A stretch of DNA of 64,000 bases from an uncultured Methanobrevibacter sp. (lineage in GTDB: Archaea > Methanobacteriota > Methanobacteria > Methanobacteriales > Methanobacteriaceae): NCBI RefSeq assembly GCF_902801725.1, contig NZ_CADCJB010000007.1, positions 1 to 64,000 of the forward strand, in the 5' to 3' direction. The translations under genes were made by a program, and so were the position numbers. This document shows, piece after piece, positions 24,543 to 39,295 of this stretch. The notes below the pieces were generated by a model. That model did no database searches. It worked only from the letters and a program-made list of their open reading frames with translations, and had not been told where the DNA came from. Position 1 is the first letter of the stretch. Every line of letters starts with the position of its first letter.

Positions 24543-25034
24543 ATGGATAGTAGTGAAGCTATTTATAACGGTTTGAAAGATGCCGGAATTGACTTTATCG
24601 TTAGCGTTCCATGCGCAAACCTATCAAAATTATTGGACATGATTGATGAGGATAATGACATAACCCATATTCCGGTTACACGCGAAGAGGAAGGAATTGG
24701 AATATGTGCAGGAGCATATCTTGGAGGCAAAAAAACCGCAATTCTAATGCAAAATTCAGGACTTGGAAACTCCATAAACGCTCTAAAATCACTTATGGAA
24801 CTATATGAATTTCCATTAATTATGATAATGAGTCACAGAGGAACTGAAGGCGAAAATATTTGCGGACAGGTCCCTATGGGAGAATCTACCCCAAGAATTT
24901 TGGAAGCTATGGATTTCAGATTTTTCAAGCCAGGCAATCCCGAAGCTGCATATGAAGCAATATTTGATTCATGGGATTTGTCAATTGAAGAGGGAAAACC
25001 CGTTTCAATACTATTAGAAATTAGTTATTGGTGA
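24543..25034 (+). CDS. comD: Sulfopyruvate decarboxylase, alpha subunit
   Basis: 163 aa. It corresponds to the N-terminal PYR domain of ThDP decarboxylases: [14 protein letters not shown], then [20 protein letters not shown] with the cofactor-activating Glu, [14 protein letters not shown] and [12 protein letters not shown]. Together with ComE it decarboxylates sulfopyruvate to sulfoacetaldehyde in coenzyme M synthesis. GTGATATA precedes the ATG, and comE follows by 4 bp. The substrate-forming comA lies about 13 kb away on the other strand. Confidence 0.93.
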
Positions 25035-25038
25035 TAAA

Positions 25039-25581
25039 ATGGCAAGAAGAGAAGCAATTGTTGATATAATGGATAAAATTGATGATGAAATTGTTGTATG
25101 TAATATCGGATTTCCATCAAGAGAATTGTATGACATTGACGACAGGGACAAAAACTTCTATATGATCGGTTCAATGGGTCTTGCATCATCAATCGGTTTT
25201 GGTCTTGCATTGGCACGCCCCGATAATGACGTTGTTGTTATTGATGGTGACGGATCACTTCTAATGAATATGGGTTCACTTGTAACAGTTTTTGCAAACA
25301 ATCCTAGAAACTTGACATGGATTGTGATAGACAATGGTGCTTACGGTTCAACAGGAAATCAGGACACATATGCTCAAGTAATTGACTTATGTGAAATTGC
25401 AAAAAGTGTAGGATTTAAAAATAGCTTTAAATTCGAAGAAATTGACTTGAGTGAAGTTATAAAAAGTGATGATGCAAGTTTCATAGTATATGATACAGAA
25501 CCCGGAAATTCAAAAGCACCAATCATTGATTTGGACCCACCCACAATTAAAAACAGATTTATGGATTCCATCAATTCTTAA
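25039..25581 (+). CDS. comE: Sulfopyruvate decarboxylase, beta subunit
   Basis: 180 aa. This is the ThDP-binding PP domain: FPSRELYDIDDRDKNFYMIG, GSMGLASSIGFGLALARP, and the diphosphate/Mg motif DGDGSLLMNMGSL followed about 25 residues later by DNGAYGSTGNQ. It pairs with ComD in an alpha/beta oligomer. GGTGATAAA precedes its ATG, overlapping the end of comD, so the two are translationally coupled. A 9-bp inverted repeat follows it at 25602-25632. Confidence 0.93.
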   Translation: MARREAIVDIMDKIDDEIVVCNIGFPSRELYDIDDRDKNFYMIGSMGLASSIGFGLALARPDNDVVVIDGDGSLLMNMGSLVTVFANNPRNLTWIVIDNGAYGSTGNQDTYAQVIDLCEIAKSVGFKNSFKFEEIDLSEVIKSDDASFIVYDTEPGNSKAPIIDLDPPTIKNRFMDSINS

Positions 25582-26179: not shown

Positions 26180-26198
26180 AGTAGAAAGATTTTCTACT
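26180..26198 (-). terminator. Terminator hairpin of the papain-adhesin gene
   Basis: AGTAGAAA and TTTCTACT form an 8-bp stem with a 3-nt loop, overlapping the stop codon. On the minus strand a T-rich tract follows. Confidence 0.65.
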
Positions 26199-29100
26199 AT
26201 ACAACCCTGATTTTTACGTTTTTGGACACACCATTATAATAAGCATTACCACCATATCTAATTTTAGCCGCATAAGTGCCTTTTTTATTTAATTTGGTAA
26301 TTTTAAATGTTGCCTTACCATAATTATTTGTTTTTGTACTATAGGTTATACGACCAATCTTTAAAGTGACTTTGGTTCTTTTCATTGCCTTATTTAAGTT
26401 ATTTTTCAATGTAATAACATATTTTTTAGGTTTAACCTTTAATTTAAAGGATTTAGATGAAGCATATAATTTTGTAGCTGCTTTTTTGACAACCACTTTT
26501 GCTTTAATGTTTTTGCATGAACTACTTGAAATAACAACACTGTATGTTTTTGCAGGGAAATTACATGCCAGTTTAGCTTCACCATTGGCATTGGTTGTCA
26601 ATGTGTAATAATTGAATTTTACTCCATTGCTTGCAACAACATTAGCATATACCTTAGCATTCTTTATAGGATTGCCCTTATAGTCTACTAACTTTATAAT
26701 TAAACGTTTAGAATCGCCATAAACCTTATTAACACTATTTGCAGACAGGACAGGAGATTCATCAATCACATTTACATTAACTCTAGTTGAATAGGAATTG
26801 AAATTATTGTCTCCGCTGTATTTTACAGGTATCAAATAGGTGCCTTTAGTAACCGGCGGAATATTGAAACGGGACTCACCATTTACAATTTGTTCTGGAT
26901 AATCTTTACCTTCAAATGTGAAGATTATTTTACCGGTAGCTTTGGCTGATGATAATTTAGCAATCAATATTTTACCATTATCATCAGTTAGAAATTCTAT
27001 TTTAGGAGTCTTTTTTGATACAGTTAATTTGAACTGTTTAAATTCATTTGTAGCAGGGTTGGTTACTTCCACATTATAATTGCCAGCACCCAATAAAACG
27101 GAAGTGGATGCAACACCTTTGCTATCAGTTACCCCTTTATAGTTAACATCATTAATTTTAAATGCCACATTAGCATTTGAAATTGCTTTGCCTTCGCTAT
27201 CGATGAAAGTTGCCTTGACATATGAATCTTCATAGACGTAGCTTAAGTTATCGGCGGTAACTGTTGTTTTGACAATGATTTTAGATGAACCTGAAATGTC
27301 CTTATACTGATATTTGATTTCATATATTCCAGGACCTAAAGGTATTTTAATGGAAGCTACACCATCACTGCCAGTAGTGGCGGCATAAACATCCCCCTGA
27401 AATATGAAATTAACCTCAGCACCGCTTAAAGGCTTGTCATTATCTGTTATGTAAACCTTGAAACTTTCGGGATTTCCGTAATATTTTTCCAAATCAGATG
27501 CTGAAACCACTACATTAGAAGTTACATCAAATTTTTCGGATGCAGTAAAACCGTTCATATTTGCATCGCCGGCATATGATATTGAATAATTATAGGAACC
27601 GGATTTCAAATCAGTTATTATCAAAGAAGCGTTTCCCTCATGGATTGAAGATGGGTAATCCTCTTGTTCGAATGTGAAAACTATATTTCCTGTTGCTGTA
27701 GACGGATTCAAACTTACAGTTATTGTAACTGAATCTTCAATTTGACTGGTGAATATTGAAACATCCGGAGAGGATTTTGTAATTGTGAGTTTGAACTGTT
27801 TTTCCTCTTTGGTTGCCTGATTAACAGCAATGACATTATAGCTACCCACATTTAAATCGATTTTGGCAGTTGCAACACCATTATTATTGGTTGTTGCTTT
27901 AAATTCCATATTATTGATTTTGAATGTGACTTCTTTTCCTGCAAGTGGCTGTCCATTAGCATTTAGGAATGTTCCACTTGCTTTTGCATTGAAATAACTT
28001 CCTGTCACATCACGGACAGCAATTGTTGATTTGATTGTAACTTTTGACGCCTTGGAATCACGGCCATAAACTGTTGTAACATCATAGATTCCAACGGCCT
28101 GATTCAAATCAATGCTTGCCTGACCTGCAGTATTAGTTTTTACACTATACGACTTACCATTTATATTGATTGTTACGTAATCTTCAACCAACGGCTTACC
28201 GTTTTTCATGACTGTTGCAGTGAATTTTTCAGGTCCTCCATAATACTTGGAAACATCGGGAGCTGAAATGGATATGACAGGTTTGATTACATTAAAATTG
28301 AATTTGACAACATTGGATTTATAAATATTATTTTTATACTCTGCAGATAATGAGTAAGTTCCGGTTTCATTGAAAGTTACTTTTAAACAGGCTTGGCCAT
28401 TTTTGACATATGCATAATAGTTCTTATTATTTATAGTAATTGCTACAGTGCCGCCATTTATTTGACTGTTACTGAGTTTAACATTGATGCTTATCTCTTT
28501 ATATGCTTCAACTTCAGTTAATTTATCAACAGTGATTGTTACATCTTTTAATTCCAATGGAGTTGTAAATGCCTTAATGCAAGCTACATAACATCCAGAT
28601 TTATAATCATATAAATCCTGCCAATAATCACAAGTTTGATTATATATAAATGAAACATTATCTGCGAAGGTCACTTTGTTAATTCTTGAAGCATCACAAA
28701 GTGGAATACTATTATTTCCACTATTATAATTTTTAATGACAATAGTAAATTTGGTTCCTGAAGCCAATTTTATTGGAGAATTAAATGGAATTGTATAATA
28801 ACCGGCAGGAGAATATCCTTTTTGAGTCAGAACCAAATTATTACCCACATAGACTGAAACTTCATAGTTAGTCGGATCGATGAAAAATGTTGAAAATGCA
28901 GACAATTTTTCATCACCAAATGAAGTGAATGTGTTTTTGTAAGATGCACTGCCATTGAAGATAATAATATAATTTGGTCCTCCAAAGTCATACTGGTAAT
29001 TTCTTGTATAACCTTCAGTATCGTTGAATATGAATGTGTAGACAAAATTAGATAAAGGTGATTCAATTTCATTTTTAAATTGTTTCTGATAAGACATATG

Positions 29101-31047
29101 GCAGAAACCATCTTCCAAAACGGTACCCCAACTGTTTTTAACTATCCATGCGCCTTTAGCATAATTTCCGAAAACATCCTTACCATTATAATTGTCATCC
29201 CATCCTATAAGTGAAATGGTGTGATAGGTATTAATCCAATATACCGAAGCGGTAACAGCACCATAGTCCATAATAGCCCGTTTTATAGCATCATTATCAT
29301 CAGTATTTTTACGGACAGGCAAACAGTAAATATTTTGAACATGGACCAAAGGACTGAAGACTTCAGACAATCCAGAATAATCATCATATTCATCAAGGCT
29401 GTCATTTACTGGACCTAACCAACTTGCAAAGTAACTCATTGCCATACTATCAACCCCTCCTTCATTCGGCTCATAAGTTCTGCCGAAAAGGGAATAGTAT
29501 GACATTAAATTTTTAACATTTTCTTCGGAAAGGTCATATGATATTCCTGTCGCTTTCTTAAGGCATGCTTCCAGTGTAGCAATTGACCCGAATGACCAAC
29601 AATTAGCACCGCTAAACTGATTTTTAATTGGACTGATATAACCGTAATCCCTTGAGTCATAATATGACGGAACATTTGTCTGTGATTCAGGAACATAATT
29701 GATTAATGGTACAGCCTGATTAGAATTGAGATCATAAATTGTATTGTTTTCTCTGAAAACAGTATGTCCAAAATTGTCTTCTGAGTTATAAAAGGTAGTA
29801 TTGGTTAATGTTACTGAATCAGAAATTCTTGAATAGATTGCACCCCCACTATTGGCATGGGAATATTGAAAATGAGAGTTTTTAGAATAAATATTTCCCC
29901 TGTCGTTAAAAATAACACCACCCATAAAAGTTGCCGCATTATTATCAAAAATAATATTATTAATTATTAGATTTGAATTTAGATTACATATTGCACCGCC
30001 AAAATCAGATTTTCCATTACGAAAGACTCCATTCACGATGCTTAAACTGCAATTTTCATCATAAAATGTTCCACCACCATCACTTAAAGCAATATTATCT
30101 GAAAAATAACAATCATTGGAAGTTACAGTACTTGACTTAACTGCCATAACCCCTCCAAAACTGGAAGATTGTGAATAAAAAAATCTGGAATTTAACAAAT
30201 CAACATAATTATCTTCCGCATATATCACACCACCATATTTGGCGGAATTAAGATTGAATTCAGAATTGAAAATTCTTAGAACTGATTTCAAACTATATAT
30301 TGCTCCTCCTAAACGACGAGATGTAGAGTTATAAAAATATGAATTATTAATTAACACATTTGAATTATAAGCATCAATAACTGCTCCTGATTCACCTGAA
30401 TTACTTTGAAAAATACAATTATTTAATGTTATATTAGTCCTCGAATCTTTAGGGGAATCACAAACTATTACACCACCATAGCTATCATAAACATCTCCAT
30501 TATAATCTAAAGAACTTAAAGAAGTTTCATAAGAATCAGTAGAATAAAAAATAACATTATTTGCTTCCAAGTTTCCCTGATTAAGAATATTAATCTTATA
30601 GAATGTCAAGTCTTTTAATTCCAGAGATGAACCTTTTAGAATTTTGAAGTCGAAGTCAAATGAATTAGAAATAATATTGGTGGGGTTTTCATTTTCACCC
30701 ACAAATGTTATCTTTTGTGAAGCTGATGAAATTTTTATTAACTCATCCAATTCATAATTACCATTTGCAAAATAAGCAGTTCCCACATTGGTCAATTTAT
30801 TGGAACTTAAATATTTATATGGTTTTTCTTTTGATCCGTCTCCATCGACACTTGCCGATGCATCAAAATAAACTGTTTGTCCGCTTTCCAGGACATCTGA
30901 TTGTACTTCTGTAAGTTGTGTTTCATTCTGTGAAAATGCATCCAAAGCAACATCACCCGATTGGGTTGAATTGACATCACTTGCACTAACAACAGAAATT
31001 GCAAAGAGCAATATAATTATGGCAAATACTGATTTTTTATTAAACAT
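26197..31047 (-). CDS. Adhesin-like protein with embedded papain-type (C1A) cysteine protease
   Basis: 1,616 aa. Signal peptide (FAIIILLFAISVVSA); beta-helix/Pmp repeats with GGAI motifs (about 90-440); then a papain-like domain (about 455-690) with oxyanion Gln477, catalytic Cys483 in QFSGANCWSF, His609 in YHTISLIGWDD and Asn638 in VKNSWGT, so the catalytic set is complete. A beta-rich segment (about 700-830) follows, then repeated Ig-like/Big domains (about 840-1500) and a Lys-rich C-terminal domain ending NVKIRVV without a transmembrane anchor. Similar protease-adhesin fusions are known among methanogen adhesin-like proteins. It may cleave peptides of wall, host or neighbouring microbes, or process itself; the substrate is unknown. 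It is divergent from the symporter across 122 bp. Confidence 0.9.
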   Translation of the reverse strand: MFNKKSVFAIIILLFAISVVSASDVNSTQSGDVALDAFSQNETQLTEVQSDVLESGQTVYFDASASVDGDGSKEKPYKYLSSNKLTNVGTAYFANGNYELDELIKISSASQKITFVGENENPTNIISNSFDFDFKILKGSSLELKDLTFYKINILNQGNLEANNVIFYSTDSYETSLSSLDYNGDVYDSYGGVIVCDSPKDSRTNITLNNCIFQSNSGESGAVIDAYNSNVLINNSYFYNSTSRRLGGAIYSLKSVLRIFNSEFNLNSAKYGGVIYAEDNYVDLLNSRFFYSQSSSFGGVMAVKSSTVTSNDCYFSDNIALSDGGGTFYDENCSLSIVNGVFRNGKSDFGGAICNLNSNLIINNIIFDNNAATFMGGVIFNDRGNIYSKNSHFQYSHANSGGAIYSRISDSVTLTNTTFYNSEDNFGHTVFRENNTIYDLNSNQAVPLINYVPESQTNVPSYYDSRDYGYISPIKNQFSGANCWSFGSIATLEACLKKATGISYDLSEENVKNLMSYYSLFGRTYEPNEGGVDSMAMSYFASWLGPVNDSLDEYDDYSGLSEVFSPLVHVQNIYCLPVRKNTDDNDAIKRAIMDYGAVTASVYWINTYHTISLIGWDDNYNGKDVFGNYAKGAWIVKNSWGTVLEDGFCHMSYQKQFKNEIESPLSNFVYTFIFNDTEGYTRNYQYDFGGPNYIIIFNGSASYKNTFTSFGDEKLSAFSTFFIDPTNYEVSVYVGNNLVLTQKGYSPAGYYTIPFNSPIKLASGTKFTIVIKNYNSGNNSIPLCDASRINKVTFADNVSFIYNQTCDYWQDLYDYKSGCYVACIKAFTTPLELKDVTITVDKLTEVEAYKEISINVKLSNSQINGGTVAITINNKNYYAYVKNGQACLKVTFNETGTYSLSAEYKNNIYKSNVVKFNFNVIKPVISISAPDVSKYYGGPEKFTATVMKNGKPLVEDYVTININGKSYSVKTNTAGQASIDLNQAVGIYDVTTVYGRDSKASKVTIKSTIAVRDVTGSYFNAKASGTFLNANGQPLAGKEVTFKINNMEFKATTNNNGVATAKIDLNVGSYNVIAVNQATKEEKQFKLTITKSSPDVSIFTSQIEDSVTITVSLNPSTATGNIVFTFEQEDYPSSIHEGNASLIITDLKSGSYNYSISYAGDANMNGFTASEKFDVTSNVVVSASDLEKYYGNPESFKVYITDNDKPLSGAEVNFIFQGDVYAATTGSDGVASIKIPLGPGIYEIKYQYKDISGSSKIIVKTTVTADNLSYVYEDSYVKATFIDSEGKAISNANVAFKINDVNYKGVTDSKGVASTSVLLGAGNYNVEVTNPATNEFKQFKLTVSKKTPKIEFLTDDNGKILIAKLSSAKATGKIIFTFEGKDYPEQIVNGESRFNIPPVTKGTYLIPVKYSGDNNFNSYSTRVNVNVIDESPVLSANSVNKVYGDSKRLIIKLVDYKGNPIKNAKVYANVVASNGVKFNYYTLTTNANGEAKLACNFPAKTYSVVISSSSCKNIKAKVVVKKAATKLYASSKSFKLKVKPKKYVITLKNNLNKAMKRTKVTLKIGRITYSTKTNNYGKATFKITKLNKKGTYAAKIRYGGNAYYNGVSKNVKIRVV

Positions 31048-31169: not shown

Positions 31170-32465
31170 ATGTTAAATAAACTAAAAAAGATAAGCTTAA
31201 GTAATTGGATATTAATCGGAATGATTTTAGGTATCCTTGTTGGCTTTATTTTGAATTTTTGGGTTACAGATCCTTTTATAAAAAACATTATACTGATGGA
31301 CAATGTTTTCTACTTTGGAGGTACAGGATTTATCCGCCTCATGAAAATGTTGGTCGTGCCTCTTGTTTTTTGTTCGATTATTGTGGGAGTTTCATCAATT
31401 TCAGATATTAGAAAAATTGGTTCAATTGGTGGAACTACTGTACTGCTCTATCTCTTAACTACTGCCCTAGCTGTTTCCATTGCTCTTTTAATAGCTGGAA
31501 TAATAAAACCAGGAGTGGGATTGCATATGGCCAGTTTAATTGAGCAATCAAATGTCACTGTTAATCAAACAATGACAGATACACTATTGAACATGATTCC
31601 GGAAAACCCAATTAATTCCTTAGCTTCAGGAGATATGCTGCCGGTAATTATCTTTGGAGTACTCATAGGTATAATCTTAGCAAAATTAAAAAATGAAACC
31701 CAAACATTTAACAAACTTTTTTCAGAAGGAAATACTATCATGATGGAAATGACCTCAATTGTAATGAAGTTTGCACCTATTGGTGTATTCTGTTTGATGG
31801 CTCGGACTTTTGCAGGACTTGGTGTTGATGGTTTACTTCCATTAAGCAAATATATCCTATGCGTCCTTATAGGTTTAGCAATACAGGGATTTATCGTATA
31901 TCCAACATTACTTGTCATATTTACACGTTTAAATCCATTGAAATTCTTTAGGAAGTTTACTTCAGTAATGTTTTTTGCATTTTCATCATCAACTTCGAAT
32001 GCAACAATTCCTCTGAATTTAGAAAAACTGTCTGAATTGGGAGTTTCACGTGACGTTTCATCATTTACAATCCCATTAGGCGCCACCATCAACATGGATG
32101 GAACCGCTATCATGCAAGGTTGTGCGGTAATGTTTGCTGCACAGGCTTACGGTATAGATTTAACTACAAGTGCTCTTTTAACAGTAGTTTTCACTGCGGT
32201 GATGGCATCCATTGGAACAGCAGGTGTTCCTTCAGTTGGACTCATTACATTAACCATGGTATTTAATTCAATTGGACTTCCGGTAGATGCTATTGGAATA
32301 ATAATGGGAATAGACCATATCCTTGATATGTTCAGAACTGCAGTAAATGTAACCGGAGACGCCATTTGTACAATTATTGTTTCATTCAGAAGCAAGTCGA
32401 TAGATTTAGATGTGTTTAACGGTGAAAAAGAAATTGAAAAAACTGAAATTGAATATTTCGACTAA
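31170..32465 (+). CDS. Dicarboxylate/amino acid:cation symporter (DAACS family)
   Basis: 431 aa with about eight membrane spans. The re-entrant, serine-rich SSSTSNATIPLNLE and the substrate-site GATINMDGTAIMQG are diagnostic of the GltPh/DctA family, as is SIGTAGVPSVGLITL near the second hairpin. It should import glutamate, aspartate or C4-dicarboxylates with Na+ or H+; the sequence alone does not decide. TTTTGGAG precedes the ATG. It has its own terminator at 32452-32480. Confidence 0.93.
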   Translation: MLNKLKKISLSNWILIGMILGILVGFILNFWVTDPFIKNIILMDNVFYFGGTGFIRLMKMLVVPLVFCSIIVGVSSISDIRKIGSIGGTTVLLYLLTTALAVSIALLIAGIIKPGVGLHMASLIEQSNVTVNQTMTDTLLNMIPENPINSLASGDMLPVIIFGVLIGIILAKLKNETQTFNKLFSEGNTIMMEMTSIVMKFAPIGVFCLMARTFAGLGVDGLLPLSKYILCVLIGLAIQGFIVYPTLLVIFTRLNPLKFFRKFTSVMFFAFSSSTSNATIPLNLEKLSELGVSRDVSSFTIPLGATINMDGTAIMQGCAVMFAAQAYGIDLTTSALLTVVFTAVMASIGTAGVPSVGLITLTMVFNSIGLPVDAIGIIMGIDHILDMFRTAVNVTGDAICTIIVSFRSKSIDLDVFNGEKEIEKTEIEYFD

Positions 32466-32503: not shown

Positions 32504-34810
32504 TTATTTGGCTTCGTTTAATTCTAAAATCTTATTATCGAAGTCTGTTAATTTGCGGGCGAGTCCTGTAAAGTATGGAATATAGACTTTTGAAAAGGTA
32601 ACCCTTTCCGGATTGTGACCCATCTCGGCAATGCATTCTTTAACCATTCCGATTTTACGTTCCACTTCATCATACATTAAATCGCCAGGGAATTCACCTA
32701 TGAATATTCCATCCGCACCGTTTTCAAGTGCATATCTTATATGTCTCGGCCTTACACGGTTTACAGAAATTACCTTGATAATGTGTATCGATTCAGGGTA
32801 GGACAATCTGTTGACCCCAATATTGTCTGCAGCAGTATAACCAATGTTATCTAAAAAGACCAGAATCATACGTTCGCCTTCACGTTTTTTAGACAATACC
32901 CCATTGATTGTGGCAACAATCTTTTCATCAACATTGCCGTTTACTGTAATTGCCCTCTGCTTACAGTCCACAAGGCATTTTCCACATCCGGTACAGCTCA
33001 TCGGATCAATGTAAATTTCATCATCCTGTATGCTCATTGATTTGTATTTGCATCTGGAAATACACTCTCCGCAAACAGTACATTTTTCCTTATCAATTTC
33101 AGCAATGAACGGTTCAATTTCAACACCACCATAGTTATATTCAGAAACTTTGGCTGCTGCTGCAGTCGCCTGCATAATTGAATCGGTTATGTCCTTTGGG
33201 TCCTGTGCTGTTCCACAAACATATATTCCCTGCACATCAGTCGCAACCGGCTTGATTTTCGGATGTGACTCCTTAATAAATCCGTCTTCGGTTGTTCCGA
33301 TATTCAATGTTTCAGCAATTTCCCGAGTACCCATTGACGGCTCCATTGCAGTAGACAATACCACCATATCAGCTTCAATCTCTACGAATTCACCTTTAAT
33401 AGTATCTTCTGTTCTTACAATGAAATTATCTCCTTTTTTAACAACTTCGCCAGGACGTCCCCTTAAAAATCTCACTTCATTTTCCTGAGTGTGTTTGTAA
33501 TACTTTTCAAACATTCCAGGAGTTCTAACATCAGTATAGCATATCAAAACATCAGTATCAGGATATTTATGTTTAATGATATTGGCATTCTTCAGGGCTA
33601 CGGTACAGCATATCTTTGAACAGTATCTATGGCCGTCCGGTTTTTCATCCCTGGAACCTACACATTGTATCATCACAACACGCTTTGGAACTTCCCCATT
33701 TGATTTCAGGAGCTTTCCTTTAGTAGGTCCGTTTACACCAGTGATACGTCCAAGTTCAGACTGGGTTATTACATCAGCATATCTGGTGTATCCGTATTCT
33801 GGCCTTTTTTCCATGTCAAATAACTTATGGCCTGTTGCAACTATAATCGATCCGACCTGAAGCAATGACTTTTCAGGCTTTTGCCTTAATTTAATGGCTC
33901 TCATATTACATGTTCTAAAGCAATCCCCACATTTTGAACAGTTGTCCATATCTATTACATAGCTTTCAGGATAAGACTGTCCAAATGGCCTGTAAATTGC
34001 TTTTCTCATTGACAGATTGTCATTCCAGTCATTTGGAACTTCCACTTCACATACTTCTGCACATTTTCCGCATGCAATACATTTTTCCGTATCGACATAT
34101 CTTGGAGACTGTTCCACAATCAGATTGTATGTTCCTGCCCTTCTTTCAGATTCAATTACTTTCGCATTAGTTAAAACTTCAATATTTTCATTCCAGACAA
34201 GTTCATTCAAAATAGGATTCAAAAGGCACATTCCACATTCCTCAGCAATTTTGACAGGTGAAAATACCTTACCTATCTTCGCCATATGCCCTCCGATTGA
34301 AGGTGACTGTTCTATGATTGTGACTTTGGTTCCCTGCTTTGCAAGAGACAATGCAGCATTCATTCCTGCAATCCCCCCACCTATTACCGCCACTTCATCA
34401 GGAGTCTGGCAATATATTGGATCAACCGCATCGGACTGCTTCACTTTCTCGATAGATGCATTGATTAATGTAATGGCCTTATGGGTTGCCCTTTCACTGT
34501 CATCATGAACCCATGAACACTGTTCCCTGATGTTGGCCATGTCCATAAGATAAGGATTCAGAGGTTTTACATAATCCTGGAATGTTTTTTCGTGGCTTAT
34601 CGGTGAGCATGCAGCAACTACAACCCTGTCAAGGTTATGGTCGAATATGGCATCACGAATAATTTTACGACCGTTAAGAGAACATAGGTTTTCAAACTGT
34701 CCGATAAATTCAACATCTAAAGAGTCTCTCACTTCATCCAAATCAATAACATCTGCAATATTTCCTCCACATTCACATAAAAACACGCCAACTTTTAAAT
34801 CATCCCTCAT
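32504..34810 (-). CDS. hdrA: HdrA-like protein fused to a cysteine-less MvhD-like domain
   Basis: 768 aa. The HdrA body has an N-terminal VGVFLCECGGNI segment, the FAD motif VAVIGGGIAGMNAALSLAKQ (about 145), SIGGHMAKIGK with ECGMCLLNP, and four ferredoxin motifs (CIACGKCAEVC, CSKCGDCFRTC, CTVCGECISRC, CTGCGKCLVDC). From about 648 an MvhD-like domain follows (ILVFLDNIGYTAADN, RVRPRHIRYALENGADGIFI, FPGDLMYDE). MvhD normally binds a [2Fe-2S] cluster through Cys clusters at three places; here all are replaced (FLDNIGY, SVNRVRP, GEFPGDLMY). No cysteine remains in this domain. ATGA overlap with hdrB. Flavin-based electron transfer is likely, but input from a hydrogenase through MvhD is doubtful. 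Confidence 0.9.
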   Translation of the reverse strand: MRDDLKVGVFLCECGGNIADVIDLDEVRDSLDVEFIGQFENLCSLNGRKIIRDAIFDHNLDRVVVAACSPISHEKTFQDYVKPLNPYLMDMANIREQCSWVHDDSERATHKAITLINASIEKVKQSDAVDPIYCQTPDEVAVIGGGIAGMNAALSLAKQGTKVTIIEQSPSIGGHMAKIGKVFSPVKIAEECGMCLLNPILNELVWNENIEVLTNAKVIESERRAGTYNLIVEQSPRYVDTEKCIACGKCAEVCEVEVPNDWNDNLSMRKAIYRPFGQSYPESYVIDMDNCSKCGDCFRTCNMRAIKLRQKPEKSLLQVGSIIVATGHKLFDMEKRPEYGYTRYADVITQSELGRITGVNGPTKGKLLKSNGEVPKRVVMIQCVGSRDEKPDGHRYCSKICCTVALKNANIIKHKYPDTDVLICYTDVRTPGMFEKYYKHTQENEVRFLRGRPGEVVKKGDNFIVRTEDTIKGEFVEIEADMVVLSTAMEPSMGTREIAETLNIGTTEDGFIKESHPKIKPVATDVQGIYVCGTAQDPKDITDSIMQATAAAAKVSEYNYGGVEIEPFIAEIDKEKCTVCGECISRCKYKSMSIQDDEIYIDPMSCTGCGKCLVDCKQRAITVNGNVDEKIVATINGVLSKKREGERMILVFLDNIGYTAADNIGVNRLSYPESIHIIKVISVNRVRPRHIRYALENGADGIFIGEFPGDLMYDEVERKIGMVKECIAEMGHNPERVTFSKVYIPYFTGLARKLTDFDNKILELNEAK

Positions 34811-35751
34811 TTTTCAACCTCCTTCAAATCTTTAATAACAGAATCAATTGGTACGGTATGGGCTTTAGCACCTATTACCTTATCTAAATCACCACCCATA
34901 GCCAATGCTACAAACTGAGCAATATTCAAATGGATTGCCCTGAATTTCCTTTTTTCCCTATCTGCAATCAGATGCTGATATCTGTCGAACTGAATATGGC
35001 AATTAGGACACAAATGCACCATGATATCCACATCCTCATCACATATTGCATTCATCTTATCGGCAGTCGCACTGAATGACAGCTCTGGATTTGAATATCT
35101 CTGTCTGAATCCTGTTCCACATGTGGCTCTTTTGTGGTCATACCAACCGATGGTTTCACAACCGCAAGCTCCAATTATATCATCCAATATATGGGGATCC
35201 CTTACACCCCCGACAGTATCTTCATAATGCACTTTGCAATAGTGGCATCCGTGGTGAGTGGCTATTGTATAATCGCTTAAATCATACTTTATCTTATCAG
35301 GAATTTCATCAATTTTATTATATAATATATCAACAACATGAAAAATATTTTCAGTAGGCTTCAATTCATCCTTTTCATACTTCAAATGACCCAATCCATT
35401 TTCATCGAATAGATTATTGATTTTTTCCCTCAATTCATCCTTATTATTCAATAGCTTTACTGATTTCTTATTTATCGCGTAGCATGTTGCACACATCATT
35501 ACAAGATTGGGCCTGTCTAAATCCTTAGCTATTCTGAAATTACGGGCCCCAATGGCAGATGTGGAAAGCTGGTCAAAGACATCAGAGTAATGTCCAAGCC
35601 CAGTACAGCATGTTTGCTTTTCAGAAATTGCATAGTCAACTCCAAGCTTATCGAATACGAATTTAGTGGATGCTTCAACACCAGGATATTCGACACTGAC
35701 AAGGCAGCTTCTAAAAAGAAGTATGTTTTTATCCGGAATTTCTTTCATCAT
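34807..35751 (-). CDS. hdrB: HdrB-like protein with altered second CCG motif
   Basis: 314 aa. The two cysteine-rich (CCG) domains of HdrB normally each bind a noncubane [4Fe-4S] cluster. The first is intact: Cys16, Cys48-Cys49 and Cys87-x2-Cys90. The second reads HHGC...KRATCGTG...CPNC, so the CC pair is Thr-Cys and the usual GG following is changed to TGF. Extra cysteines (HYC, GACGC) lie nearby. Overlap of 4 bp with hdrC and hdrA. Active-site cluster chemistry at the second site may be altered, which argues for a substrate other than CoM-S-S-CoB. Confidence 0.88.
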   Translation of the reverse strand: MMKEIPDKNILLFRSCLVSVEYPGVEASTKFVFDKLGVDYAISEKQTCCTGLGHYSDVFDQLSTSAIGARNFRIAKDLDRPNLVMMCATCYAINKKSVKLLNNKDELREKINNLFDENGLGHLKYEKDELKPTENIFHVVDILYNKIDEIPDKIKYDLSDYTIATHHGCHYCKVHYEDTVGGVRDPHILDDIIGACGCETIGWYDHKRATCGTGFRQRYSNPELSFSATADKMNAICDEDVDIMVHLCPNCHIQFDRYQHLIADREKRKFRAIHLNIAQFVALAMGGDLDKVIGAKAHTVPIDSVIKDLKEVEK

Positions 35752-36344
35752 TCTTCCTCCTGAGATTGCCTTATCTTTTCAATTCTGTCCTTGAAACCTG
35801 TGATTGTCAATATTGTACTGACTTCATCAATAACTTCCTCTGGAGGCATTAACGGCGGGTTCAACTCAAGTTCATCTCTTATATCGCCCAAGTTTTGCCT
35901 GAATTCCCACCAGCCAGGAACATCTCTCCTGATGTCCTCAAAGAATATTTCAGGAATTGCTCCGATAGCAGCTGTAAAATAACTGTCTGCAAATCCCATA
36001 TATTCATATAGCTTATCATAACCTATTCCATTATTAATTGCAAACTGCTTGAGGATTTGATTAACTTCGCATACACTGTTTCCAACAGGACATACGCTAT
36101 GACAAGTATAGCAATAAAAGCAATTCCAGATATTGTCATCTTCCATAATTGTCATGTCACCCTCCAAAACCCTTTCTATAATGTCACGGGGATTATAGTC
36201 AGAATGACGGGCTGCAGGGCATGTTGATGTGCACATTCCACATTGAACACATTTCAATACACCATCCTCCTTTGAATTTTTAACATCAAGAATGATGTCC
36301 TCAGCAAAGTCTATTGGTGAATCAGTTATTTTTTGAGTAGTCAT
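35748..36344 (-). CDS. hdrC: HdrC-like iron-sulfur protein
   Basis: I start this at ATG 36344 (MTTQKITDSP, 198 aa), because GGTGATT lies 5 nt upstream; a longer frame from 36380 would overlap the preceding gene by 26 bp. Two [4Fe-4S] motifs are present, CVQCGMCTSTCP and CFYCYTCHSVCP, with the HdrC-type spacing. HdrC passes electrons from HdrA to HdrB. The second motif is followed by VGNSVCEVNQILKQFAI, as in the family. It is the first of hdrCBA and follows the COG1900 gene by 10 bp. Confidence 0.9.
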   Translation of the reverse strand: MTTQKITDSPIDFAEDIILDVKNSKEDGVLKCVQCGMCTSTCPAARHSDYNPRDIIERVLEGDMTIMEDDNIWNCFYCYTCHSVCPVGNSVCEVNQILKQFAINNGIGYDKLYEYMGFADSYFTAAIGAIPEIFFEDIRRDVPGWWEFRQNLGDIRDELELNPPLMPPEEVIDEVSTILTITGFKDRIEKIRQSQEEE

Positions 36345-36354
36345 ATAATCACCA

Positions 36355-37605
36355 CTATAATTTAAATTCCTTATTTTCAATCATTTTCTTTAATTTTAAA
36401 GATAATTTATTGGCTCTCAGCCTATCTGATTGTCTGCATATAATAGGAACGTTGACATTTCTTCCGTCAATTTCCAAATCAACATCTCCAGTGTTCATGT
36501 CAAATGCATCATGTTTGCAGTAATGTGCACACATTCCGCATCCGAAACAGTATGCTGGATTTAATCTTTCATTTTTAAATGCATTTGTAGGACATACTTC
36601 CTCTACACGACAGCTTTCGCAATTTTCACATTCTAATCTGTTGAATTGAGGCCTTAAGTCATATTCACCCCACATTTCCCTGTAATTGGTATTGGTAAGT
36701 GGCAAGTGGCGTCCTTTGATATCTGCCACAGGCAAGTCAATGTCTTCATCCCTGACAAGTAAATTGTTGTATATTTCTTCTGTCAATACGGGAATTGGAA
36801 TTGCCACAGTATCATAGACCTCTCCGCCCTGACCTGTCTTGAATCCTCCAAGATAATATGGATCCATTTTGCATAAATCTGCTGACAACATCAGATTTGG
36901 CTTTTCAGGACTTGACCTTGTACCGTCTCCCAATATATAACCTTCAGCACCATTAATCAAAACCTTCTTGCCCTGCCTAATTACATTGTGAGGAATGTCA
37001 TTTTGAAGAGGATTCAAATCACCGCATCCTGAAAATGTCAAACCGGACAGATTACCTTCAAGAGGAACTGCTGCAAATATTGATGAAATGGCTTCTTTAT
37101 TCGGATTTGTAAATGCAGTGTAGTTTTTGAATGCCATACGAGTTCCGATAATCTGACCTCTTGTAATATCTTTCATTGTTATGGTGTTTTCAATTGTTTT
37201 TCCCTCTGCAGTTTCAATTCTGACATCAATTTCTTTTCCTTCCAGAAGTTCCTTCAGCAAGAATCCTCCACCATAATTTCCATCATGAATAGAATGGGCA
37301 GTTCCATGAAGAATTGCATCAACCGAACCAAGCCACTCATTCGGACAAGGCCCAGCATATGCCGGAACACCATTCAGGTAAACTTCATTTGCCCTTATGA
37401 ATTCACCTGGGGCGGAAACTATGAAGTTTAGTATGGCTGCCGTACCGCTCATTACGCCACATGTTCCTGTTGTTATGACATCCACATCTTCAAAAGCCGG
37501 TGCCTCATCATTTTTAACAAGTTTTTTAAATTCTTCTGCAGTATATATTTTAGCTTCACCGTCATCAATTTTCCTGTTGATTTGGTCAATGCTTTTAGTT
37601 TTCAA
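36355..37605 (-). CDS. COG1900 (DUF39) sulfurtransferase with C-terminal 2x[4Fe-4S] domain
   Basis: 416 aa. The N-terminal part carries the family signatures TGTCGVMSGTAAIL (with a conserved Cys), AGPCPNEWLG, NYGGGFLLKELLEG and GCGDLNPLQND. The C-terminal part has two ferredoxin motifs, CENCESCRVEEVCP and CFGCGMCAHYCK. In Methanosarcina the COG1900 protein with its separate ferredoxin partner converts aspartate semialdehyde to homocysteine (Rauch and Perona work). Here the ferredoxin is fused. It lies between comA and hdrC in one operon. The first ferredoxin motif has five rather than three residues before its last Cys. Confidence 0.88.
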   Translation of the reverse strand: MKTKSIDQINRKIDDGEAKIYTAEEFKKLVKNDEAPAFEDVDVITTGTCGVMSGTAAILNFIVSAPGEFIRANEVYLNGVPAYAGPCPNEWLGSVDAILHGTAHSIHDGNYGGGFLLKELLEGKEIDVRIETAEGKTIENTITMKDITRGQIIGTRMAFKNYTAFTNPNKEAISSIFAAVPLEGNLSGLTFSGCGDLNPLQNDIPHNVIRQGKKVLINGAEGYILGDGTRSSPEKPNLMLSADLCKMDPYYLGGFKTGQGGEVYDTVAIPIPVLTEEIYNNLLVRDEDIDLPVADIKGRHLPLTNTNYREMWGEYDLRPQFNRLECENCESCRVEEVCPTNAFKNERLNPAYCFGCGMCAHYCKHDAFDMNTGDVDLEIDGRNVNVPIICRQSDRLRANKLSLKLKKMIENKEFKL

Positions 37606-37632
37606 TTTAACTACCTTCTTTACGTTTTTAGA

Positions 37633-38412
37633 TTAGATTTTACCTACTGTATCTCCTCTTAATCCTCTTCTTAAAGTTTCAAGAGAAGTAATGTCATCAC
37701 TTGAAATGTTTCCCAGATTAACTGAGTTTCCCAATTTCAATATGAAAAATACTTGCTGATCCTTATTTGGAGCTTCCCAAAGGATTTTATCTCCATCAAA
37801 ATTATCCAGAATATAGTCTATTTCATCTTCCTTTGCATTTCCGGATTTATCAAATATGCCTATGTTCTTTCCCCCTTCCCTTGCTTCAACAATTATCAGA
37901 GAGGACCCGGCATTCAATTCTTCATGCATATATTCAATTCTCTTATCGAGGGACAATTCTTTATCCAGATTAGGGTCTTTTTTGCCTACTTCAGACAATA
38001 CTTCAAATCCATTTTCCTTTGCAAGGGCTATGCATTCCACCTTATCATCATGAGGAATATTGACTGATCCGTCTGAAATCTCAATCGCCGGAAAGCCCAA
38101 ATCATGAGCTTCACTAAAAAACTCCTCCAGTTTATTCGATTTATATGCCAGCTCAAACAGTGTTCCACCAGTGTATGGAGTAATCTGATGTGACTTGTAC
38201 ATCTCGACTTTGGATTTAATTATGTCCTGTTCATGCACAATGGAAGTTCCCCAACCAAATTTCAGATAGTCAACGTAGTCTCCGGAAATTTCCATTAGGC
38301 TTTTTGCGGTTTCAAGACCTAAACCTTTGTCCAAGACCATTGTTATTCCACACTTTCTTGGCTTTTCTTCTCTTGGAATAGATAAAAATTCAAATGATTT
38401 CACAATTATCAC
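37633..38412 (-). CDS. comA: Phosphosulfolactate synthase
   Basis: 259 aa. Conserved TIM-barrel pieces: ITMVLDKGLGLETAK, DYVDYLKFGWGTS, YTGGTLFELAYKSNK, GFPAIEISDGSVNIP and ILWEAPNKDQQVFFI. ComA adds sulfite to phosphoenolpyruvate, the first step of coenzyme M synthesis in this order. The ATG at 38412 lies about 165 bp from the divergent COG2122 gene. It heads an operon of comA, COG1900-ferredoxin and hdrCBA, tying CoM synthesis to homocysteine formation. Confidence 0.95.
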   Translation of the reverse strand: MIIVKSFEFLSIPREEKPRKCGITMVLDKGLGLETAKSLMEISGDYVDYLKFGWGTSIVHEQDIIKSKVEMYKSHQITPYTGGTLFELAYKSNKLEEFFSEAHDLGFPAIEISDGSVNIPHDDKVECIALAKENGFEVLSEVGKKDPNLDKELSLDKRIEYMHEELNAGSSLIIVEAREGGKNIGIFDKSGNAKEDEIDYILDNFDGDKILWEAPNKDQQVFFILKLGNSVNLGNISSDDITSLETLRRGLRGDTVGKI

Positions 38413-38578
38413 ACGTGTTAAGTTAATTTTCTAAATTATAAATAATTAAAGATTATATATAAATGTTTTTAATACTTTGCTTTAAAATACAAATATAAGG
38501 CTGTTATGACAATGTAATGAAAAAATAACATATAATATAAGGGAATTTTTTAATAGTAAAACCCCTAAAATAAAAAAT

Positions 38579-39295
38579 ATGCCCTATCAAGAAATTAACT
38601 TAGGTGAAACCCACATCAGGCTGAAAACAGATTTGGAAAATCACCACCTGAAGGAATACATATACACAATTAGGTCAGATTTGAAAAACTACATTTCAAA
38701 AAATCAGGACTTTCTACTTTCAATGGAACCTCTTAAGCTAAATGATGAATCGCTGCCATTAATAGTAAAAACAATGGATGAATCATCAAAAATTTGTGAT
38801 ATCGGACCAATGGCATGCGTTGCAGGTACAATATCACAATTATCACTTGATTATCTAATTGAAAACAACTCCAAACATTCAATCGTTGAAAATGGAGGAG
38901 ACATTGCATTAATGAATAATGAAACCGCATTATGCGGAATATATTCCAACAATGAAGTTCTGGGAAATGAAATAGCCTTTAAAATTAAGCCCAGAAAAAA
39001 GCCTTTAGGAATTTGCACCTCCTCAGGCAAAATTGGTCATTCAATCAGTTTCGGCAGTTCCGACAGCGTAACAATCATCAGCAGGAGCCCTTCAATAGCT
39101 GACGGACTTGCAACCAGAATTGCAAATGATGTTAATGGAAACACTTCAGAAGACAAGATTTCCAATGCTCTGGAAACTGCAGAAAACTACAGAAAACATT
39201 TTGAAGGAATTTTAATTATCAGCGATACGAACGTAGGAACAATTGGAAAATTGCCCAAAATTGTTGAAACTAACGAATTCAATGTTAAAATCTAA
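38579..39295 (+). CDS. UPF0280/COG2122 family protein (ApbE-related)
   Basis: 238 aa. Typical features: [39 protein letters not shown] and [15 protein letters not shown], which resemble the flavin-transferase ApbE fold. In Methanosarcina acetivorans the COG2122 protein was linked genetically to homocysteine biosynthesis with COG1900; its chemistry is not settled. It is divergent from the comA operon, so the two could share a promoter region. TATA-like sequence lies about 40 nt before the ATG and no good ribosome site is seen, so the message may have a short leader. Confidence 0.88.

Follow-up and report, generated by a model that had tools for sequence, protein, structure and literature searches.

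We analysed a window of 64,000 nucleotides (positions 1 to 64,000 of contig NZ_CADCJB010000007.1 of an uncultured Methanobrevibacter sp., a methanogen of gut type; genome completeness 94%). It contains a minus-strand operon with the order comA, comF (a COG1900-ferredoxin gene), hdrC, hdrB and hdrA, and a COG2122 gene placed divergently on the plus strand. The association of this gene content with the synthesis of coenzyme M (CoM) is solid. We consider it slightly more probable than not that the heterodisulfide reductase-type (Hdr) set of the operon, Hdr1, delivers electrons to the ComF reaction and is the dedicated reductant of CoM thiol formation. The features of the locus are the following:

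37633..38412, minus strand: comA, phosphosulfolactate synthase, first step of CoM synthesis (TIGR03849, 328.8 bits, cut-off 280; PF02679)
36355..37605, minus strand: predicted comF/MMP16, COG1900-type CoM synthase with an inserted ferredoxin domain (TIGR03287, 543.5 bits, cut-off 363.95; PF01837, residues 18-416)
36493..36657, minus strand: ferredoxin-like stretch of ComF, residues about 317-371 (PorD/KorD-like match 317-371)
35748..36344, minus strand: hdrC of the Hdr1 set (NF041890, 328.9 bits, cut-off 270)
34807..35751, minus strand: hdrB of the Hdr1 set (NF041780, 536 bits, cut-off 450)
35122..35124, minus strand: codon of HdrB Thr210, in place of one Cys of the C-terminal CCG motif (alignment against 8rvu_b)
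32504..34810, minus strand: hdrA of the Hdr1 set, with a C-terminal MvhD-like domain (NF041891, 1399.6 bits, cut-off 1300)
32519..32866, minus strand: MvhD-like (FlpD) domain of HdrA, without the [2Fe-2S] cysteines (PF02662, 93.6 bits, residues 649-764)
38579..39295, plus strand: COG2122 gene, MA1715-type family (NF003321, 266.4 bits, cut-off 262; relative of PDB 2o34)
24543..25034, plus strand: comD, sulfopyruvate decarboxylase alpha subunit (TPP_enzyme_N; adjoins comE and is named by context)
25039..25581, plus strand: comE, sulfopyruvate decarboxylase beta subunit (TIGR03846, 240.9 bits, cut-off 221.5)

The map of open reading frames (ORFs) bears out the layout given in an earlier note on this DNA, namely the gene order, the 4-bp overlaps (hdrC/hdrB and hdrB/hdrA) and the 166 bp between COG2122 and comA; the gap from comA to comF is 27 bp. 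All six proteins of the operon and the divergent gene exceed an NCBIfam cut-off (TIGR03849, TIGR03287, NF041890, NF041780, NF041891 and NF003321, the last of which we take to be the model of COG2122). The first listed ORF start of hdrC, TTG at 36380, overlaps comF; translation more likely begins at position 36344, with an in-frame ATG. The comDE pair and the MvhD-like C-terminus of HdrA are features beyond the earlier note. Between comDE and hdrA the window has two further genes, one adhesin-like and one for a sodium:dicarboxylate symporter; at the related loci L102, L133, L134 and L135 comDE follow hdrA directly and are convergent to it. The identities of comA, comDE and comF thus indicate that the locus holds the first, the sulfopyruvate decarboxylase and the last steps of CoM synthesis. 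HdrCBA is not the sole Hdr of the genome, which the note had named as a finding that would refute it: a further HdrA lies at two contig ends (C1 and C34).

The note had taken the COG1900 gene for a homocysteine sulfurtransferase, with CoM thiol formation as a bracketed "perhaps". The bracketed half proved to be the better one. Judged by its family model and domain matches, the protein is methanogenesis marker 16 (MMP16), i.e. ComF, the CoM synthase. MMP16 has been reported as the primary CoM synthase of Methanosarcina acetivorans in vivo (PMC12068725), and the name ComF is carried by MJ1681 (MMP16/ComF = MJ1681, MA3299). Like these proteins, the window protein lies over the TIGR03287 cut-off and has its ferredoxin-type matches (317-371) inside the HcyBio match (18-416); Pfam adds an LdpA match at 335-370 and a weak, sub-threshold Fer4 match at 349-368. 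The main-text sections of PMC12068725 consulted name no Hdr neighbours of MMP16. In the ComF reaction the aldehyde of sulfoacetaldehyde becomes a thiol, which takes two electrons with sulfide and four with sulfane sulfur, and the sulfur species and electron number of this last step are described as unclear (PMC12068725).

It appears extremely unlikely that the COG1900-ferredoxin protein uses electrons of HdrCBA to convert aspartate semialdehyde to homocysteine, and homocysteine as its main role was rejected on family and gene context. The protein is the sole COG1900 protein found (a PF01837 profile search of the 94%-complete genome gave no second gene), a double role is conceivable, and COG2122 is reported as a homocysteine-pathway gene in Desulfovibrio (PMC5764234). 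However, the protein belongs to the MMP16 subfamily, its neighbours are comA and comDE, and no CBS-domain family occurs among its Pfam matches; moreover, genomes without ComF also lack ComA, as does the CoM auxotroph M. ruminantium (PMC12068725). L-ASST (MA1821/MA1822), the enzyme of the homocysteine route, shares with the window the COG1900 domain, a ferredoxin and the COG2122 helper, but it has its own C-terminal CBS domain and a separate NIL-ferredoxin, and no such COG1900 protein was found in the window genome. COG2122 is a homocysteine gene elsewhere, as the note had it (PMC5764234; PMC12068725), whereas here it stands beside CoM genes and is absent from seven near-complete genomes without them. 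Likewise, the proposed purpose-built Hdr module stands as a module tied to sulfur insertion, whereas its homocysteine target does not.

The window Hdr set is, by profile scores and phylogeny, a distinct family, Hdr1, the same as Methanosarcina HdrA1C1B1. The window HdrB scored 174.5 bits with the canonical model TIGR03288, below the cut-off of 345.15, and HdrA stayed below the cut-offs of NF041778 (788 bits, cut-off 1400) and NF040770 (753 bits, cut-off 1100). Among 14 control genomes, the NF041780 cut-off was exceeded in M. acetivorans only; in the survey of 192 Methanosarcinia genomes (the class of one Methanosarcinaceae genome) it was exceeded in 41. The HdrB tree was built from 30 of the 59 Methanobacteriales and 20 of the 32 Methanosarcinia HdrB rows, together with undrawn rows from L101, L109, L113, L116 and L131, the window, one PDB chain and outgroups. 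The window, Methanobacteriales HdrB1 and Methanosarcinia HdrB1 form one clade in it (99/97, bootstrap not settled), apart from PDB 8rvu_b. HdrA1C1B1 of M. acetivorans, regarded as an enzyme of energy metabolism, thus shares with the window the HdrB family NF041780 and the clade and, at locus L272 of genome G282, an MvhD-like domain without cluster cysteines and a Thr in the second CCG motif. It differs in gene order (hdrA-hdrC-hdrB versus C-B-A in the window) and in the HdrA model exceeded (NF041778 versus NF041891). The degenerate MvhD-like extension of the L272 HdrA1 was found by Pfam (60.6 bits), whereas HdrA1 is described in PMC6019823 as having no MvhD extension, unlike HdrA2. The HdrA-MvhD fusion is also common to HdrA2B2C2 of M. 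acetivorans, but the window HdrA falls below NF040770.

HdrA, HdrB and HdrC are all homologous to those of the canonical HdrABC-MvhAGD complex (PDB 5odc, 8rvu), with the cluster cysteines of HdrA and HdrC mostly in common. In 56 different HdrA rows, 26 of the 28 cysteines of 8rvu_a were present in at least 55; the two that are not retained (Cys 91 and 293) lie outside CxxC-type motifs, and the FAD-site Lys (417 by 8rvu_a count) was found in 56/56. The eight cluster cysteines of HdrC were retained in 88/88 rows. The canonical complex has a separate MvhD with cluster cysteines, whereas the MvhD-like domain of the window is fused and lacks them. The five Cys columns common to the MvhD-like proteins of the window genome (L005, L006) contain other residues or gaps in the 67 aligned HdrA C-termini (66 locus rows plus the window, with the outgroup L100 and some genes twice), four rows having a lone Cys at one column; the window HdrA has no Cys at any MvhD [2Fe-2S] column. 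In canonical HdrB both CCG motifs are complete, with five Cys each. The first motif is complete in the window HdrB too, but in the second, at the site that is Cys in 8rvu_b, 90 of 93 rows have Thr and two have Ser; a Cys occurs in a single row, the outgroup L100. This outgroup, from G138 (L100 8421-12517), is a further divergent HdrA-HdrB-HdrC set with 42/29/37% identity to the window and an HdrA with an MvhD-like end; a scan of the genome contigs with this extra HdrA found no relative.

The retained cysteines of HdrA and HdrC, and the name of the family models (ferredoxin:CoB-CoM heterodisulfide reductase), would suit an Hdr1 that acts as a ferredoxin-fed reductase of CoM-S-S-CoB or of CoM disulfide and keeps CoM in the thiol form, its genes merely travelling together with those of CoM synthesis (CoB, coenzyme B). 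HdrA1B1C1 has indeed been proposed as the methylotrophic heterodisulfide reductase (PMC6019823; PMC9963511), a role which, according to PMC6019823, needs validation. We consider this explanation unlikely. The loss of one cysteine of the second CCG motif in 92/93 HdrB1 rows speaks against it, as do the shared absences and the mutant data described below.

The linkage of the genes was followed by ComF and HdrB profile searches of 150 Methanobacteriales genomes each; the phylum-wide search covered this order and one further genome of the same class. ComF counts leave out L-ASST-type rows (1-289 matches, about 140-150 bits), and HdrB1 counts leave out G018:C59 (many stops) and G003 and G004 (below the cut-off), while contig-end fragments were retained in the linkage counts. 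Both ComF and HdrB1 were found in 104 Methanobacteriales genomes. In the genera labelled g1 (58/58), g3 (2/2), g6 (3/3) and g9 (5/5), every genome with both genes has comF and hdrB on the same strand and less than 4 kb apart, 68/68 together. Their linkage is not due to chance, and the conservation of gene order in relatives, which the earlier note had set as a check, is confirmed. In the same genera comA was found within 2.5 kb of comF in 71/71 comF-bearing genomes, COG2122 within 10 kb in 56/66 (the other 10 on separate contigs) and comE within 20 kb in 47/69 (21 on separate contigs; 21.5 kb in G043).

Differently ordered clusters occur in other genera. In g5 (L125) the arrangement is comDE/COG2122/hdrABC with a divergent comF 4 kb from hdrB, in g10 (L126) hdrCBA-comD-comE-COG2122, in g7 (L127) comA-COG2122-comDE-hdrA and in g8 (L101, L131) hdrC-hdrB-comF, where comF and hdrB are likewise co-oriented and within 4 kb of each other in 2/4 genomes. 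In the two g8 genomes G016 and G017 (L101 6707-10099; L131 6569-9948), a second ComF is accompanied by its own hdrC-hdrB but by no hdrA, and hdrABC is located elsewhere. In G059 (L111) a second comF-hdrC-hdrB-hdrA unit follows the first on the same contig with no second comA; a DUF169 (COG2043) gene lies between the two units (L111 9076-10101). A second comF-hdrCBA unit was also found in G054, G058 and G083 (L128-L130), on short contigs beginning inside comF, and each of these genomes has a single comA, beside the other comF. Among the Methanosarcinia, G310 (L282) carries cysteate synthase, comDE and comF beside an MreA-type regulator, hdrA1 and hdrB1, and its near relative G312 has the same two halves at contig ends.

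Two further explanations, which we judge about equally improbable, can be considered against this linkage. Hdr1 might act like the sulfur-oxidising sHdr complex and produce sulfite from bound sulfane sulfur. Sulfite is a substrate that ComA and cysteate synthase share and is used in both CoM routes (PMC3087415; PMC12713407), and Hdr1 stands beside comA in the window and near cysteate synthase in L282. However, the repeated units (L111, L128-L130) have comF and no comA, and hdrC-hdrB-comF of g8 (L101, L131) has no adjoining comA. CoB, which contains no sulfonate, also falls in the mutant. Clusters of sHdr include a lipoate-binding protein and a second HdrB/HdrC; the ORF map shows no second HdrB/HdrC in the window operon, and lipoate-binding proteins were not searched for. 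Alternatively, the linkage might involve no shared chemistry: genes dispensable where CoM is supplied by the environment would gather and be lost jointly, with Hdr1 as a passenger. In agreement with this, the genes are far apart or on separate contigs in g12, g13, g15 and g16, and the losses observed are block deletions. The differently ordered clusters in g5, g7, g10, g8 and G310, the repeated comF-hdrCBA unit, and the comDE, cofH, HTH and UPF0058 genes that remain where the block is absent speak against it.

Joint absences likewise point to a dedication of Hdr1 to CoM synthesis. In the window's family, 82 genomes are at least 90% complete; of these, 71 have both ComF and HdrB1, 8 neither, 2 ComF only (G136, G141) and 1 HdrB1 only (G008, 490 contigs), which gives a Fisher probability of 1e-8 not corrected for kinship. 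G062 (L106), one of the eight, was discarded as evidence, as was the absence of ComF in G031, since the contigs end inside the cluster. Profile searches of G063, G103, G012, G022, G023, G027 and G033 (all at least 90% complete) found no ComA, ComF, Hdr1-type HdrA, HdrB1 or COG2122, while each of the seven retains one canonical-level HdrA match. They belong to three genera (g1, g6, g9), which implies three or more separate losses, provided that the genera are valid. In the near relatives G063 and G103 (80-85% DNA identity), comD-comE are followed by one short ORF and then by the HTH, UPF0058 and 457-residue-type genes, the com-hdr block being gone; in relatives such as L118 the block is present between comDE and the HTH/UPF0058 flanks. 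In the Methanosarcinia, all 41 genomes with HdrB1 over the cut-off also have ComF, which is found in 136/192 overall.

In M. ruminantium, known to be auxotrophic for CoM, comADE are missing (PMC10658910), and so is MMP16 (PMC12068725). CoM auxotrophs still need to reduce CoM-S-S-CoB, and the loss of Hdr1 from the seven genomes without ComA and ComF therefore speaks for a biosynthetic role and against the disulfide reductase. Since Hdr1 is absent from relatives that lost CoM synthesis, it probably serves the building of the cofactor and not the methane-forming energy metabolism, and we regard its dedication to CoM synthesis in the linked genera as likely. ComE exceeds its cut-off in G063 and G012, is weak in G103 and finds no match at ComE level in the other four. 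ORFs of comDE persist in G063, G103 and G012 (L104 8387-9428; L105 8394-9408; L103 1696-2753), which suggests a recent loss or another use of sulfopyruvate decarboxylase.

Published mutants of M. acetivorans bear on both partners. The MMP16 deletion is reported as a CoM auxotroph in the absence of sulfide, and without CoM its hdrABC, cs and comDE are induced (PMC12068725). The deletion of hdrA1C1B1 (MA3126-MA3128) lengthened doubling by 19% with sulfide and by 81% on cysteine as sole sulfur, and the mutant grew like its parent on CoM plus acetate (PMC9963511). Its total CoM was 41% lower (16.66 versus 28.16 nmol/mg), CoB was below detection, and the share of CoM-SH in total CoM was higher, 92.6% versus 82.3% (PMC12713407). 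A more reduced CoM pool is the opposite of what the loss of a disulfide reductase should cause. Overexpression of com genes did not restore the growth rate; the authors conclude that less CoB is made, and in the passages of PMC12713407 consulted no direct role in thiolation is proposed. Among the matches listed in our literature search, none linked an Hdr set to ComF or described the operon, though a neighbourhood figure in the supplement of PMC12068725 may do so; excerpts of the HdrA survey PMC12054007 mention neither CoM biosynthesis nor MMP16 nor Methanobrevibacter.

For Hdr1 as the reductant of the ComF step, the following course may be envisaged. ComA would open the CoM pathway, ComDE would yield sulfoacetaldehyde, and ComF would swap its aldehyde for a thiol, with HdrCBA as a biosynthetic complex committed to this step. 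Electrons, with reduced ferredoxin as the most likely donor, would enter HdrA at its clusters of ferredoxin type, since the fused MvhD domain no longer has the [2Fe-2S] cysteines and this cluster is the usual point of feed from hydrogenase or formate dehydrogenase. From HdrA they would move over FAD and HdrC to HdrB1, in which one Cys is missing at the second noncubane-cluster site. The ComF sulfur intermediate that HdrB1 might reduce could be a thioaldehyde, a persulfide or a mixed disulfide; the reduction would take place in direct contact with ComF or via its inserted ferredoxin, and COG2122 may aid sulfur delivery.

Perhaps Hdr1 is also the reductant of CoB thiol formation. This extension was drawn from the CoB level of the mutant and from homoaconitase-family genes near hdrB1. 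A gene of the homoaconitase-family large subunit lies within 6 kb at 15 of 20 mapped Methanosarcinia hdrB1 loci (L273-L276, L279-L283, L286, L287, L291, L292, L294 and L296; two of the five misses are contig ends); the eight scored neighbours fall slightly below the HacA_Meth cut-off, and a link to coenzyme B synthesis is possible. That the whole HdrA1B1C1 family of Methanobacteriales and Methanosarcinia is a ferredoxin-driven cofactor-thiolation reductase (CoM via ComF, probably CoB) and not a heterodisulfide reductase of energy metabolism is a tentative generalization, and one we rather doubt.

A number of observations weigh against ComF as the partner of Hdr1. In 31 other Methanobacteriales genomes with ComF and HdrB1 the genes are far apart or on separate contigs, g12 contributing 4 and 15 cases, respectively; in G282 comF and hdr1 are 189 kb apart, and in the Methanosarcinia the two are linked in only 1/41 genomes (2 with G312), the others having them at least 66 kb apart or on separate contigs. 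The second units of G054, G058 and G083 could be accounted for by contamination (8, 3 and 4%). The count of at least three losses comes from genus labels only and, the genes being linked, a single block deletion can explain a joint loss. HdrB1 is missing in 19/123 ComF-bearing Methanobacteriales (11 of f2/f3, G136, G141 and six below 90% completeness) and in 95/136 ComF-bearing Methanosarcinia, so that Hdr1 would be one solution among others; an L-ASST-type COG1900 protein is listed for the f2/f3 ComF genomes and for G141, and for G136 a second COG1900-type match was counted and not listed. Conversely, G008, G031 and G107 (fragmented or incomplete) have HdrB1 and no ComF match, and G071 and G029 have ComF and Hdr1 and no COG2122 match. 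Methanosarcinia G194 (L277 6905-10808) has an Hdr1-like hdrC-hdrB-hdrA in the window's order and no ComF match, which also favours the disulfide reductase; its HdrB (418 bits, under the NF041780 cut-off) carries the Thr of the second CCG motif. The mutant deleted for hdrA1C1B1 still makes CoM and is not auxotrophic for it, was barely slower without added sulfide (10.71 versus 9.64 h) and gained free CoM from a com+ plasmid (15.35 to 19.58), and the authors attribute its phenotype to energy metabolism (PMC12713407). It is not rescued by CoM alone (PMC9963511).

Some neighbouring genes were also observed. On the comDE side, adhesin-like genes that encode Ig-like repeats adjoin hdrA in the window (26197-31047, minus strand) and in G043 (L139 11595-17999); the one in the window also encodes a lectin-like domain and a peptidase of the papain family. 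For the symporter gene between the adhesin gene and hdrA (31170-32465, plus strand), no ORF in the mapped related loci was labelled as a relative. In G147 of the f3 group (L107 11118-16318) no Hdr accompanies comF, which has alaS on one side and the sulfurtransferase gene thiI on the other; the 898-residue neighbour of comF, considered as an alternative redox module, proved to be alanyl-tRNA synthetase.

Two open questions meet in this locus: which sulfur species and how many electrons the final reaction of CoM synthesis uses, and what HdrA1B1C1 does. Cofactor thiolation may draw its electrons from a complex previously assigned to energy conservation. If this is true, two observations become easier to understand: the fall of CoM and CoB in the M. 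acetivorans deletion alongside a CoM pool that is more reduced, and the discarding of Hdr1 by methanogens that import CoM. CoM synthesis is, moreover, relevant to the mitigation of methane from ruminants.

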